Positions 12,201 through 32,153 of a stretch of 39,048 nt of DNA are shown in pieces. The notes under the pieces are model-generated. The model saw only the letters and a list, made by a program, of their open reading frames with translations. It ran no database searches and was not told the origin of the DNA. A program made the translations under genes and the position numbers. This DNA comes from a virus, in IMG/VR virus record IMGVR_UViG_3300043427_003613, positions 1 to 39,048 of that record; one strand, written 5' to 3'. Numbering within the stretch: the stretch's first letter is position 1; every line of letters begins with the position of its first letter.

Positions 12201-15200
12201 CAGGAGTTGGAACTACCCAAGCAATAGGAATAGCAACGACATCAATTGCTGGAATTGGAATCACAGATAAATTACCTTCTTCTTTATTTGTAGTGAAAGT
12301 TAATGATATAGGTATTCAAGTTGCTGCATCTGCATCTGAAGCACTCAAAACAATTCCAAATACATTAGATTTAACTTCTGTTGGAATAGGAAGTGTACAT
12401 ACTTTTACATCAAAAAATCAAAATAATAAGGTTATAATTGGAATTGACAATGTAATTCAATCTCCGGTTGTTTCCACATCAATTACATCGTTTTTAACAA
12501 AAAATGTAACTCCACTTGATTTTGATATTTATTGCTCAGACATAAGTTCTATTTTTAGTGGTGATTTAATTAAGATTGGTGATGAAATTATGAAAGTTTC
12601 TGCTGTAGGTGTTGGAAGTACAAATTCAATATTAGTCATTAGATCTTGGTTGGGAACTGAAGAATTATCACACAATCAATATGATATTGTTACTAAAGTT
12701 TTTGGTACCTATAGTATCTCAAATAATACCCTCTATTTTTCTGAGGCACCATTTGGTAAAATTCCTTTCACAAATTTTTCAAATAATCCAAGTGAGCAAG
12801 ATTATATTGGCATATCTACAAGTTCTACTTTTAGTGGAAGAGTATTTTTAAGATCTGGAATTTCAGATACTACAAATGAACCTTATAGTAATAATTATAT
12901 TTTTGATGATATTTCTGATCAATTTAATGGATTTGAAAATACATTTACATTAAAATCAAATAATTCAAATGTGACTGGAATATCAACAGACAATGCAATT
13001 TTATTGATCAATAGTATTTTCCAAGGACCAGTATCAACTAATATTGACGGAGATTATAATTTGATTGAAAATACTGGAATAACAAGTATTACTTTTACTG
13101 GAGTTGCAAATTCAACAAGTTATGATGTGAATACTGGAAGTCTTCCTAGGGGTGGTATTATTCTTTCATTAGGATCTACTCAAGGATTTGGATATCAACC
13201 ATTAATTTCTGCTGGAGGAACGGCAATTGTATCCTATGCAGGAACAATTCAATCTATTAGCATTGGTAATAGTGGATCTGGATATAGATCTGGAATTCAA
13301 AAAATTATTAATGTGGGAGTTAAAACTGAGAATTTAGAATCATCAACTATAGAATTTGTCGGGGTTGCTTCTGTAATAAATGGTAATATCGTAAGTATTG
13401 CGATTACAAATCCTGGAGTTGGATATACTTCATCAAATCCTCCAATTGTTGTATTTGATTCTCCTTTATCATATTCAAATCTTCCTCTAATTTATAGCCC
13501 TCAATCTTCAGTGGGACTAGGAACTGGTGCAGTTATAGATATCGTCGTTGGTCAAGGATCTAGTGTCATCTCGTTTGAACTAAAAAATCTTGGATATGGA
13601 TATAAACGAGGTGAAATCCTTACCGTTTCAATTGGAGGAACACTTGGAATTCAAACAACTTATTCTTCAAATTTCTCAGAATTTCAAATTATTATTGATA
13701 ATATCCAATCTGATCAATTTACTGCTTGGTCAATTGGCAATCTTCAAGTAATTGATCCGTTAGATTCATTATTTGATGGGAATAGAAAAGTATTCCCAAT
13801 ACTAATTGAAGGTAATCAAACTACAATTAGATCTAAAAAAGGATCTAATATTGATGTTCAAGCATCTTTATTGGTGTTTATAAATGACGTTTTGCAAGTT
13901 CCAGGTCAAGGTTATATATTTGCTGGTGGAAGTAGAATAGAATTTACTGAGGCACCTAAAATAGGAGATAAATCTAAAATTATATTTTACAAAGGAACAG
14001 GTGATATTGATACTCAAGTTATTGATATTCTTGAGACTATTAAAGTTGGAGATAATGTTCAAATTAAGAGTGATGATATTATATTAAATCAAAATGATAG
14101 ATTAGTTACTGAAATTATTTCCTCAGATATCATTGAAACAAATATATATTCTGGACCAGGAATATCTCAAAATGAAAATTTATTGAGACCAATTCTTTGG
14201 TGTAAACAGACTGAAGACTTGTTTGTAAATGGGCAATCTGTTGGAAAAAATAGAATCATTTATGAATCTTATATTCAACCAGTTTCAAGCATTATCCAAA
14301 ATGTTGGAATCGGATCTACTATAATTTTTGTTGAAAATGTAAAATCTTTATTTGATAATGAAAGAGAATATATCCATGACGGAACAATAGAAAAACCCCA
14401 GAATAAAATTTTAATTGTATCTCAAGATAATATAGTTTCTGCTGCTGCAACTGCTGTGGTTTCTATTTCTGGAACTATTTCTTCGATTATTATTTCTGAT
14501 GGTGGCGTTGGTTATAGTACATCTCCTACAGTTTCAATAGGCAATCCTGTTGGAATAGCAACTACTGGACTTGCTCAATTAAATGCAACAATAATAAATG
14601 GATCTGTAACATCTGTATCAGTTATTGATGGTGGATTTGGATATGATTCATCTCAACCACCAATGGTTTTAATTGAACCACCTGAACCAAAATATGAAGT
14701 TATAGATAATATTTCTTATACTGGAGATTTTGGTGTCATTACTGGAATCAAAACAACTTCTGTTGGCGTTGCATCCACAGGTATTGTGTTTGATTTCTTC
14801 ATCCCACAAAATTCTCCATTGAGAGATGGTAAAACAGTTACAGTTGGGATTGCAACTACTGGAATTAGTGGAATTCAAACTGGATATTATTTTACTATCA
14901 ATAACTCAAATGTTGGTCAAGGACTCACATCTCTAAATTCTTCTGGAGGTGTAGTTGGAGTTGGTACTACTTTTATTGATAACATTTATCAAGTTGCTGC
15001 AGTTTCCATAGCACAAACTGCGGTTTCGGGGGTTGGGGTTACTTATGTTGCCCAAGTAACTGTAAGCGTCTCTAATTATAATGGTTTAAGTGGTATTGGG
15101 TACAGTGGTTTTTATGGCGAATATAGTTGGGGAAGAATCTCTACACCAACTAGAAAAAATCCGCAGCAGTTTACCTCATATGCAAACATTGGAGGAATTT

Positions 15201-28102: not shown

Positions 28103-28546
28103 ATGCCTAAAAAATTTGACAAGTTAGATGAAGTTTTTAATGTCGCAAGTGAAATTGTAGAAAATCAAATAGAACCTATACAAATTGAAAAGATAGAAGA
28201 AAAAAAAGAAACAACTTCGATAGTTAATGATATAAAAAGAGACTATGAGTATTCTAGAGGAAACTTCTATTCTATCATAGAAAAGGGACAAGAAGCAATT
28301 AATAGTGTTTTGGAATTAGCGCAAGAAACAGAATCTCCAAGAGCATATGAAGTTGTTGGTCAGTTAATTAAAAATGTTTCGGATGCTACTGATAAATTAA
28401 TGGAACTTCAGAAAAAACTCAAGGACATAGAGGAAGTTAAATCTTCAAGTGGACCAACAAATGTTACTAATGCACTCTTTGTCGGATCTACTGCTGAATT
28501 ATCAAAGTTATTAAAAAATAAGCTAAATGAGGAAGAAAATAAATAG
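28103..28546 (+). CDS. gp16: Small terminase subunit gp16
   Basis: The 147-aa product fits T4 gp16 (164 aa), the DNA-recognition and regulatory subunit of the packaging motor. Features are SIVNDIKRDYEYSRGNFYSI (about 39-58), then KGQEAINSVLELAQETESPR, followed by a central coiled coil with VGQLIKNVSDATDKLMELQK and the C-terminal FVGSTAELSKLLKN. Its position just after gp15 agrees. GAGG lies about 8 nt upstream of the ATG. The TAG stop overlaps a late-promoter-like box for the next gene. Confidence 0.92.
   Translation: MPKKFDKLDEVFNVASEIVENQIEPIQIEKIEEKKETTSIVNDIKRDYEYSRGNFYSIIEKGQEAINSVLELAQETESPRAYEVVGQLIKNVSDATDKLMELQKKLKDIEEVKSSSGPTNVTNALFVGSTAELSKLLKNKLNEEENK
28538..28545 (+). promoter_or_regulatory. 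Late-promoter-like box (AATAAATA) before the mosaic gene
   Basis: AATAAATA matches NATAAATA and overlaps the end of gp16. The next ATG begins 9 nt after the box, which is short, so a transcript from here would have almost no leader. An identical motif within the following coding region (28696-28703) shows that chance matches occur. Confidence 0.35.
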
Positions 28547-28554
28547 AAATAAAA

Positions 28555-30189
28555 ATGTTAAATCAAGCAGTAACTGAACTGGAAAATAGATTACTTAATC
28601 TAAAGGACACTTCTTATGATTCTATTGATAACTTGATGAGAAAAATTATGAGATCTCATAAAGTGACCGCTAAACAACTTCACAATGCTTTCACAAATAA
28701 ATATAAAAAGACACCAGACGATTGGATTAAAGGAAAAATGAAAAAAATTCACGAAGATCATAAAGAAATTGCTTCTGGTAAGAAAGCAGATGATGAAGGA
28801 TATATGGCAAGAAATGAATTGGATTCAATTGAAAGGGCAATTCAAAATCTCAGAAAATCCATAAAGTCTGGTGAGCAGCAACTTCCTGCGTGGGTTCAAT
28901 CAAAAATTACTAAGGCAGCAGATTATATTGATACTGCAGCGGAGTATCTTCAAAGTGATGAAAAAGTTGAAGAATCTATAAATCCATTAAAAGATCCAAA
29001 AACTCAAATTAAAAGATCTACTGGTGCTGGAGCATTAACTGCAAATGCAGCAAAACAATTAGGTTCAAAGGCACAAAAACTACAAAAAGAAAAAGCAAAG
29101 CAAGTTGATATTCCTAGATTTAATAAAGAAGAAATTTCTTTAGTTGAAAAAATTCTCGGGGAAGAAAAGTGTGGTAAAGACATGTATTGGTGTAATACTG
29201 ATAAGGTGTGTAAACCACTCCCAGAAGGAATGAAAGTTCCTGGACAAAAAATTAAACCAACTGAAGTTGGAATTGGAAAACCAGTTGAAGGATCTTGTAC
29301 TCATACTAAAAAAGGAAAATCTTGCCCTGTTCATGGAATGAGTCAATGCCCAATGGCAGAAGAAAGAGATCCAAAGGGACCAACTCAACCATATAAATCA
29401 CCACAAGAAATTGCTAAAAAGCATGGGGTTTCATTAAAAGAGATTCAAACACAAGTTGAAATTGGAACCAAAGTTGAATCTGAGCATACTTCAAATAAAA
29501 AACAAGCAAGAATAACCGCTCTTCAACATTTAGATGAACTTCCAGATTATTATACAAAGTTGAAAAAAATGGAAACTCAAAAAGAGAGTTCTATAATAAG
29601 AGATGCATATGGAAATTATTATGCTGAGTTTATTGATATCGTTAAAGCGGGAACTATAGAAGAAGAGAATCCTGGTCTTTGGGCAAACATTCATAAGCGT
29701 AGAGAAAAAGGTCTTCCTAGAAAAAAACCAGGACAAAAAGGATATCCAAAAACATTAGATGTTGATGAGGGAATTGAACAAGCAAGAAAAAATGTTGGTG
29801 CGGATAAATGCTGGAAAGGTAAAAAATTAGGAAATCCTCCAACAAAGATAAAAAATGGAAAAGAAGTTCCTAATTGCGTCAGTGAAGCGGCAAGAATTCC
29901 TGCCCAAACTGGCAATAATGTCTTTGTAACTTTATCTTGGAGAGGTAAATATTATACGATACAAATATTCTTCCCACAAGCAAAAGTTCCTTCAAGAATT
30001 GAGATTTCTGATGAGATTCAGAAAATTTATCCCGATTCAAGAGTAGTTACTTATCGAGTTGCAGATTTTAAACAAGGAGAACCTTTAGTATACGCTTATA
30101 GAGGTGGAAGTGGTGGCAAATTAGGTCCTAATAAAAACTATGTAAAACCTATGGGCGAAGAGGTTGAAATATCAGAGTTAAAAAAGTAG
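28555..30189 (+). CDS. Mosaic multi-domain protein between gp16 and gp17, 544 aa (zero-frame product)
   Basis: The protein is a chain of short modules familiar from marine phage proteins. Residues 22-59 have SIDNLMRKIMRSHKVTAKQL and TPDDWIKG; 82-133 have EGYMARNELDSI with AWVQSKITKAADYIDTAAEY. A Cys-rich part follows at 206-265 (YWCNTDKVCKPLPEG, SCTHTKKGKSCPVHGMSQC), possibly metal-binding. A DUF5661-like segment is at 284-338 (IAKKHGVSLKEIQ, EHTSNKKQARITALQHLDEL, YYTKL). LWANIHKRREKGLPRKKPGQ is at 376-395 and ADKCWKGKKLGN with VPNCV at 416-442. A W-x-G-x-x-Y domain at 454-503 is shared with the 105-aa protein downstream. No signal peptide or membrane segment. The stop TAG comes directly after the slippery heptamer A AAA AAG, and the adjoining -1 frame continues into another phage domain. 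Function unknown; a virion or packaging-associated role is inferred from position only. Confidence 0.82.
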   Translation: MLNQAVTELENRLLNLKDTSYDSIDNLMRKIMRSHKVTAKQLHNAFTNKYKKTPDDWIKGKMKKIHEDHKEIASGKKADDEGYMARNELDSIERAIQNLRKSIKSGEQQLPAWVQSKITKAADYIDTAAEYLQSDEKVEESINPLKDPKTQIKRSTGAGALTANAAKQLGSKAQKLQKEKAKQVDIPRFNKEEISLVEKILGEEKCGKDMYWCNTDKVCKPLPEGMKVPGQKIKPTEVGIGKPVEGSCTHTKKGKSCPVHGMSQCPMAEERDPKGPTQPYKSPQEIAKKHGVSLKEIQTQVEIGTKVESEHTSNKKQARITALQHLDELPDYYTKLKKMETQKESSIIRDAYGNYYAEFIDIVKAGTIEEENPGLWANIHKRREKGLPRKKPGQKGYPKTLDVDEGIEQARKNVGADKCWKGKKLGNPPTKIKNGKEVPNCVSEAARIPAQTGNNVFVTLSWRGKYYTIQIFFPQAKVPSRIEISDEIQKIYPDSRVVTYRVADFKQGEPLVYAYRGGSGGKLGPNKNYVKPMGEEVEISELKK

Positions 30190-30214
30190 AAAGTTCTTCT
30201 GAAGTAGCAGAAGA
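30180..30214 (+). promoter_or_regulatory. Putative programmed -1 ribosomal frameshift site: slippery heptamer plus stem-loop
   Basis: The heptamer A AAA AAG (30180-30186) is in the zero frame as X XXY YYZ, the same heptamer as in E. coli dnaX. It is followed at once by the zero-frame TAG (30187-30189). After an 8-nt spacer, TCTTCTG (30195-30201) pairs perfectly with CAGAAGA (30208-30214) across a 6-nt loop. The -1 frame is open for 94 codons from GTA 30186 to TAA 30468. A GAGG at 30160-30163 lies upstream but farther away than the Shine-Dalgarno stimulator of dnaX. A one-base indel in the A6 run would give the same layout. Confidence 0.6.
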
Positions 30215-30470
30215 TTGGCAAAAGGTAAATCGTAAAGATAAAACTGATGGATTAAGTCAGAAAGCAGTAAATGCTTATCGTAAAGAAAATCCTGGTTCTA
30301 AACTGCAAACTGCAGTAACTGAAAAAAATCCAACAGGCAAAAGGAAAAGTCGTCGTTCTTCTTTTTGTAGTCGTATGAAGGGTATGAAATCTAAATTGAC
30401 TTCATCAAAAACTGCAAATGATCCAGATTCCAGAATAAACAAAGCACTTCGTAGGTGGAGATGCCGCTAA
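30186..30470 (+). CDS. -1 frame extension carrying a DUF6321-like C-terminal domain, 94 aa
   Basis: The frame has no ATG, GTG or TTG between its upstream stop (TGA 30165-30167) and the domain; the first ATG is beyond its middle. Therefore it must be reached by frameshift or be a detached remnant. It reads VESSSEVAEDWQKVNRKDK, then GLSQKAVNAYRKENPGSKL, then a basic stretch with SFCSRMKGMKSKL, and ends with KTANDPDSRINKALRRW-RCR. These are the hallmarks of the DUF6321-type domain that often caps phage proteins (YxxENPGSxL, SFCxRMxGM, DPxSRINKALRxW). Joined to the zero-frame protein the product would be 638 aa. The strong conservation of its motifs argues against neutral decay. Confidence 0.7.
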   Translation, partial: VESSSEVAEDWQKVNRKDKTDGLSQKAVNAYRKENPGSKLQTAVTEKNPTGKRKSRRSSFCSRMKGMKSKLTSSKTANDPDSRINKALRRWRCR

Positions 30471-30491: not shown

Positions 30492-32153
30492 ATGGCAGAT
30501 GAACATTATCTTGGTAATCCGTTACTTAAGAAGGCAAATACAAAAATTGAATTTACTGAAGAGCAAGTTCTTGAGTGGATTAAGTGTGCAAAAGATCCAG
30601 TTTATTTTGCAAAGAATTATATAAAAATTGTAACTCTTGATCACGGATTGTCAAAATTTAATACATATCCGTTTCAAGAAGAAATGATTGAGACGTTTCA
30701 TAATAATCGTTTTAGTATTTGTAAGCTACCACGTCAATCTGGGAAAAGTACTACAGTAGTCTCTTATCTTCTTCATTATGCTATTTTTAATGATAATGTA
30801 AACATCGCAATTCTTGCAAACAAAGCATCAACTGCAAGAGATCTTCTTGATCGTCTTCAAACAGGGTATGAGAACTTGCCAAAATGGTTGCAGCAAGGGG
30901 TAATATCTTGGAATAAAGGTTCTATGGAACTTGAAAATAAATCTAAGATTACTGCTGCATCAACTTCAGCATCTTCAATTCGAGGAGGAACCTATAATAT
31001 CATTTTCTTGGACGAATTTGCATTCGTCCCAAATACTGTTGCTGATAATTTCTTTAGTTCTGTTTATCCTGTAATTACATCTGGACTATCTTCAAAGGTG
31101 ATCGTGGTTAGTACCCCATATGGTATGAACCATTTTTACCGTTTATGGGATGATGCACAAAAAAGTAAGAACGCTTATGTTCCAATTGAAGTTCATTGGA
31201 CAGATGTTCCTGGAAGAGACGAGGAATTTAAGAGAACTACTATTGCAAATACTTCTGAGGCTCAGTGGAGACAAGAGTTTGAGTGCTTATTTCTTGGATC
31301 ATCAGATACCCTTATTTCTGGACCAGTACTTAATAGATTAGTATTTGAGCAACCAAAGACATCCAGTGCAGGATTAGATGTCTATGAAGACCCTCAGGAG
31401 GACCATACCTATGTGGTTACTGTTGACGTTGCTCGTGGAGTAGAAAAAGATTTTTCAGCATTTTTAGTAATAGATGTATCTCAATTTCCACATAAAGTAG
31501 TTGCAAAATATAGAAATAATCAAATAAGACCCATACTATTTCCACAAATTATAAAAGACGTTGCAATATCTTATAATAAGGCATATATTTTATGTGAAGT
31601 TAATGATGTTGGAGATCAAGTAGCTGCTGGTCTTCATTATGATTTGGAATATCCAAATCTTCTTATGAGTTCCATGCGGGGAAGAGCAGGTCAAATTTTA
31701 GGACAAGGATTTTCTGGCAAAAAAGTTCAACTTGGAGTAAAGATGTCAAAAACAACCAAAAAGGTTGGTTGTTTAAACTTAAAAACTCTTATTGAAGATA
31801 ATAAACTTGTATTTAATGATTTTGAAGTTATTAATGAACTTACAACTTTCATTCAAAAAGGTAATTCTTTTGAGGCAGAAGAAGGGAGAAATGATGATTT
31901 GGTAATGTGTTTAGTGATGTATTCTTGGTTAATTTTACAAGATTACTTCAAAGAACTTACTGACCAAGATATACGAAAAAAAATATATGAAGAGCAAAAG
32001 AATCAAGTAGAGCAAGATATGTCTCCTTTTGGATTTATTATTGATGGTATAAATGATGAGAACACTTTTGTAGATAAAGATGGTGATAGATGGTATACTG
32101 ATGAATATGGCGATTCGCAAGCAGAATTTTCTTACATGTGGAATTACATCTAA
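30492..32153 (+). CDS. gp17: Large terminase subunit gp17 (packaging ATPase and nuclease)
   Basis: The 553-aa protein is the T4 gp17-type DNA packaging motor and headful nuclease, which docks on the gp20 portal. The ATPase domain has Walker A at about 81-88 (RQSGKSTT) and Walker B at about 170-175 (IIFLDE, with D174 and catalytic E175). Motif III is at about 207-213 (STPYGMN). The RNase H-like nuclease has D312 in VTVDVARG, E369 in LCEVNDVG, and D468/D469 in EGRNDDLVM. All key residues appear intact. It is shorter than T4 gp17 (610 aa). The start ATG lies 22 nt after the -1 frame extension and has no strong ribosome binding site. The stop overlaps the next ATG by one base. Confidence 0.95.
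   Translation: MADEHYLGNPLLKKANTKIEFTEEQVLEWIKCAKDPVYFAKNYIKIVTLDHGLSKFNTYPFQEEMIETFHNNRFSICKLPRQSGKSTTVVSYLLHYAIFNDNVNIAILANKASTARDLLDRLQTGYENLPKWLQQGVISWNKGSMELENKSKITAASTSASSIRGGTYNIIFLDEFAFVPNTVADNFFSSVYPVITSGLSSKVIVVSTPYGMNHFYRLWDDAQKSKNAYVPIEVHWTDVPGRDEEFKRTTIANTSEAQWRQEFECLFLGSSDTLISGPVLNRLVFEQPKTSSAGLDVYEDPQEDHTYVVTVDVARGVEKDFSAFLVIDVSQFPHKVVAKYRNNQIRPILFPQIIKDVAISYNKAYILCEVNDVGDQVAAGLHYDLEYPNLLMSSMRGRAGQILGQGFSGKKVQLGVKMSKTTKKVGCLNLKTLIEDNKLVFNDFEVINELTTFIQKGNSFEAEEGRNDDLVMCLVMYSWLILQDYFKELTDQDIRKKIYEEQKNQVEQDMSPFGFIIDGINDENTFVDKDGDRWYTDEYGDSQAEFSYMWNYI

Follow-up and report, generated by a model that had tools for sequence, protein, structure and literature searches.

A candidate programmed -1 frameshift cassette ahead of different C-terminal caps in a terminase-adjacent cyanophage protein

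In the E. coli dnaX gene, the slippery heptamer A AAA AAG is part of a three-part layout, with an upstream Shine-Dalgarno (SD)-like element and a downstream stem, and slippage yields the short form of the protein. The same heptamer is present in frameshift genes of IS elements, and some of these genes add an SD-like element, with a stem located 5-8 nt further on (PMC4066793). Frameshifting also provides C-terminal caps to a number of phage proteins, as reported for the T3 coat protein, Lactobacillus phage A2 and Listeria phages; these caps are Ig-like, and the coexistence of in-frame and shifted versions has been attributed to chance (PMC5009743). In phage lambda, gpGT, the minor extended form of gpG, arises by a -1 frameshift close to the 3' end of the gene.

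The locus described here is found in the window, that is, the whole 39,048-nt stretch of viral DNA that was analysed (IMG/VR record IMGVR_UViG_3300043427_003613), and it resembles each of these systems in part. It shares the heptamer and a putative three-part layout with dnaX, and its in-frame relatives would share the dnaX polarity, but the protein is unrelated, slippage in the window would give the long form, and the SD-like GAGG is located farther from the heptamer (16 nt). Unlike in the IS-element genes, no transposase is involved. As in T3, A2 and the Listeria phages, a proportion of a phage protein would gain a C-terminal domain by frameshifting, and in-frame relatives exist; however, the caps are DUF6321 or phrog_7595-like rather than Ig-like, the carrier lies beside the terminase, and the slip cassette is retained in many of the in-frame versions. 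The first-pass annotation of this DNA had drawn an analogy with gpG/gpGT of tail phages, but the resemblance to the lambda pair is limited to a -1 frameshift late in a phage gene that would give a minor extended form: the protein is a different one, and its gene sits between the terminase genes gp16 and gp17, not between those for the major tail protein and the tape measure, and has no adjacent tape-measure partner. The T3/A2 cap extensions and dnaX are nearer. The signal would belong to the dnaX/IS A_AAA_AAG class, with the frameshifted C-terminal phage caps as its nearest biological precedent. Searches of open-access literature gave no account of this locus, and the protein, the caps and the polarity switching described below look new.

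The window belongs to a T4-like cyanophage structural cluster, with homologues of baseplate, neck, gp15, gp16, gp17, sheath, tube and portal proteins, and members of the psbA/psbD photosystem reaction-centre family are found in three of the longer related contigs. A scan of the window for Rfam families and tRNAs identified none. Coordinates of the relevant features are listed in Table 1. Domain and PHROG searches with the 544-residue protein returned only DUF5661 and unknown PHROGs, with no clamp-loader ATPase identity, and its predicted structure (pLDDT 46) was too poor for use. PDB sequence searches gave no convincing match. Only the place of the 544-residue protein beside gp17 points to a possible head or packaging role.

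Table 1. Features of the gp16-gp17 region in the window, with the elements of the candidate frameshift signal.
Feature	Position	Strand	Details
Terminase small subunit (gp16), 5' neighbour	28103..28546	+	phrog_445, E 9.5e-50
Zero-frame ORF, 544-aa mosaic protein (short product)	28555..30189	+	homologues in viral contigs
DUF5661 domain, residues 283-341 of the 544-aa protein	29401..29577	+	Pfam PF18905, E 2.6e-14
Conserved block GAAGAGGTTGAAATA with SD-like GAGG	30157..30171	+	GAGG at 30160-30163, spaced 16 nt from the heptamer
Slippery heptamer A AAA AAG, zero frame, in phase	30180..30186	+	
-1 frame extension, 94 codons + TAA	30186..30470	+	predicted 638-aa fused product
Zero-frame stop TAG	30187..30189	+	TAA, TAG or TGA in relatives
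Putative stimulator stem-loop TCTTCTG-AAGTAG-CAGAAGA	30195..30214	+	spacer 8 nt
DUF6321 domain, -1 frame, residues 17-91 of the extension	30234..30458	+	Pfam PF19846, E 1.5e-16
Terminase large subunit (gp17), 3' neighbour	30492..32153	+	phrog_2, E 1.2e-73

The open reading frame of the 544-residue protein ends in GAG TTA AAA AAG TAG, with the stop codon directly after the heptamer. The individual elements that the first-pass annotation had described here were all recovered, namely the zero-frame heptamer followed by TAG, the 94-codon open -1 frame with no start codon ahead of its domain, the DUF6321-like nature of that domain, and a perfect 7-bp stem-loop starting 8 nt downstream. The first ATG, GTG or TTG of the -1 frame is at 30375, within the DUF6321 domain. 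An in-phase A AAA AAG occurs twice among the 20 window genes listed, and in the other instance the -1 frame is open for 3 codons.

A protein-homology scan of viral contigs gave 79 related loci (designated by L numbers), and a pattern scan gave the more divergent members L089, L101 and L180. The layout seen in the window, in which the heptamer runs straight into a stop codon and the -1 frame stays open (hereafter referred to as stop-type), is also that of L010-L015, L018-L020, L025, L032, L089, L101 and L180. In at least 12 other assembled phage contigs, the heptamer is followed at once by TAA, TAG or TGA and the -1 extension is open, and because this layout recurs in so many distinct loci, chance and homopolymer error can be excluded. 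On the trees, the identity of the stop switches 5-7 times among the three codons. After the heptamer, some phages encode a DUF6321 cap and others an unrelated basic domain (CNKPKAQ...KSHVVKAC...KW, phrog_7595; hereafter b-cap).

The frame, the length (88-94 codons without the spacer described below) and the protein sequence of the extension are conserved among stop-type loci. Pairwise dN/dS values are 0.13-0.23 for the four clean DUF6321-cap sequences (the window, L011, L019 and L020; pairs with L180 were left out, as it has another cap) and 0.06-0.18 for the b-cap extensions, where one further pair shows no amino-acid change. No internal stops are present in the extensions compared. These ratios show that the -1 frame is under purifying selection. 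The conservation of the extension, together with its low dN/dS, rules out both gene decay and sequencing error.

The stem is less constant. In the window, its arms (30195-30201 and 30208-30214) form 7 bp around a 6-nt loop, at -8.2 kcal/mol, with a shuffle p of 0.04 in a 36-nt segment and a z-score of only -0.85 in an 81-nt fold. Several stop-type lineages have unrelated stems of their own at a distance of 5-8 nt: one in the window and L011, another in L019, another in L180, and another (AAGGCA-GAAA-TGCCTT) in most b-cap stop loci. The first-pass annotation had proposed to look in homologues for conservation of the heptamer, the stop and the stem, together with a low dN/dS in the -1 frame; this was borne out for the heptamer, the stop and the -1 frame, and the stem gave a mixed picture, with none identified downstream in the stop-type loci L020, L089 and L101. 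The stem is probably a helper, and inessential.

The heptamer is part of a recurrent block, GAAGAGGTTGAAATA-N8-AAAAAAG, forming a 30-nt module from GAGG to A AAA AAG (hereafter referred to as the cassette). A scan that sought this block was followed by an unbiased test, in which homology to other segments of the protein was the sole criterion for fetching loci. Lys-Lys is encoded at 24 of the 42 junctions obtained in this way, in every case as AAA AAG with an A ahead of it, against a background of 26% AAA AAG among Lys-Lys pairs elsewhere (upstream) in cassette-bearing genes. The codon ahead of AAA AAG has undergone at least nine amino-acid changes (among Ala, Glu, Val, Thr, Leu, Gly and Ser) and no third-base change, always ending in A, while the two codons immediately before it show 6 and 8 third-base changes. 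As judged from codon usage and substitutions, these patterns show selection on the heptamer.

The GAGG was missed in the earlier account of the signal, which gave the positions of the heptamer and the stem exactly; this upstream element goes with the heptamer, being present in 24/24 heptamer loci vs 1/18 heptamer-free in-frame relatives (Fisher p 7e-11), an association for which shared ancestry leaves only two well-supported independent contrasts, gains and losses being few. For SD-like elements, a spacing of 9-14 nt has been cited as optimal for a -1 shift (PMC5009743), and a range of 6-17 nt has been used elsewhere (PMC4066793). It is plausible that the GAGG stimulates slippage, its spacing of 16 nt falling outside the former interval and inside the latter.

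In many cassette-bearing loci, it is the zero frame that encodes the cap (KKSEMPCNKP...). In L016, L017, L021, L035, L058, L063 and others, A AAA AAG is followed by TCT GA within an in-frame fusion, so that slippage would give KKV-stop, a reversed, dnaX-like polarity. Of the 52 in-frame fusions with the cassette, 43 have a -1 frame that closes within 2 codons, against a 23% background, a comparison in which kinship is ignored. Stop-type and in-frame layouts interchange at least five times on both the tree of the upstream core and that of the terminase gene, the latter built without L013 and L017. The simplest reading of these flips is that the production of both forms is the preserved feature. 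The first-pass annotation had regarded homologues with an ordinary in-frame fusion and no heptamer as evidence against frameshifting; such homologues do exist, yet they also lack the GAGG and form a distinct set, and many other in-frame fusions retain the heptamer.

Sequences downstream of the cassette vary further. After the slip site, L020 (5527-5967) and L180 (heptamer at 2731) have the same calcium-loop-like spacer (VETPPS...DTNIDGFVD...), and behind this common spacer they carry two unrelated caps, which indicates domain shuffling downstream of the cassette. In L093, L127, L144, L151 and L155, other DUF6321-like caps (SGHKRPTKSGAGMTAKG; SPAWQRKAGK) are found in frame behind the GAGG-heptamer cassette. 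A different upstream protein (MKSWEEIIAEAKSKREQE...) carries the cassette and a b-cap in L195 (heptamer at 13087), where gp17 does not follow directly.

Among cultured phages, the DUF6321-like domain occurs in 304 records, mostly of cyanophages, exactly once in each and on differing carrier proteins, and looks like a single-copy cap. It lies in the gp16-gp17 region in six of the seven isolates opened; no cassette was found in those seven, where the caps are ordinary in-frame fusions, and a cassette search of cultured-phage records gave chance-level matches only. HMO-2011 and CRP-345 have overlapping annotations that were considered as possible frameshifts and rejected, the b-domain there being a stand-alone ORF that overlaps its neighbour. 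The predicted structure of the DUF6321 cap (pLDDT 69) was too poor for use and gave no match with Foldseek; this low-confidence model is all-helical.

Taken with the conservation of the heptamer, the stop and the open -1 frame, and with a synonymous constraint that falls exactly on the heptamer, a programmed -1 ribosomal frameshift at A AAA AAG is very likely, and the original proposal is strongly supported. Most ribosomes would read ...Leu-Lys-Lys and terminate at TAG, giving the 544-residue protein. Some ribosomes, holding the two Lys codons in their P and A sites, would shift back by one base (tandem tRNA-Lys slippage), aided by the downstream stem and probably also by pairing of the upstream GAGG with the 16S rRNA, and would continue in the -1 frame to yield a 638-residue form with a basic DUF6321 cap. 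In relatives with a zero-frame cap, the same slip would yield the short form. The cassette would act as a portable module ahead of different, unrelated C-terminal caps, setting the ratio of plain to capped protein. I infer the slippage itself, its efficiency, the roles of the GAGG and the stem, and the product ratio from these sequence comparisons.

Of the other explanations, reinitiation fares best, although it is improbable. Here the cap would be a separate small protein with a coupled start after the stop, and the cassette merely the end of the upstream gene. Separate translation is possible in b-cap loci, where an ATG lies 12 nt past the stop codon, in some cases with AAGG ahead of it, and related b-domains are stand-alone in other phages. 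However, no ATG, GTG or TTG precedes the domain in L011 and L019, as in the window, and the sole one in L180 is codon 144; reinitiation also leaves unexplained both the constraint on A AAA AAG and its persistence where the fusion is in frame. A shade less probable again is slippage during transcription of the A6-A7 run, producing a mixed mRNA pool. An A-rich run is indeed present in all loci, but it has no more than six A residues in the window, L011, L015, L019, L020 and L180, which is shorter than the usual runs for polymerase slippage; in every case the register is exactly X XXY YYZ, ending in G, and the GAGG and stems occur alongside.

Still less probable is a cassette with no translational role, serving mainly as a homology block for recombinational swaps of C-terminal domains. 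The very high DNA conservation of the block over differing upstream sequences, with at least three caps, fits such a role, which does not predict that the heptamer begins exactly at a wobble base despite amino-acid changes, nor an immediate stop followed by an open -1 frame under purifying selection. The cassette may nonetheless act as a recombination block in addition to frameshifting. Finally, the sequencing error or fresh frameshift mutation that the first-pass annotation had listed, for which the homopolymer context speaks, is of negligible probability, the same state being found in at least 12 other divergent contigs with three different stop codons.

Beyond programmed frameshifting in the window, I lean, with less assurance, towards a broader proposal for this uncultivated-cyanophage clade: that selection keeps the 30-nt module whatever the cap or its frame, and that both forms are always made, slippage yielding either the long form or the short one depending on the phage. 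In practical terms, gene callers would miss or mis-split the capped protein in stop-type phages. The locus also offers an initial clue to what DUF6321-like caps do. If the proposal is true, selection preserves the two-form output, and not either frame, despite a minimum of five frame flips and several changes of cap, which would challenge, for this gp17-adjacent protein family, the view that frameshifted and in-frame caps coexist by chance (PMC5009743).
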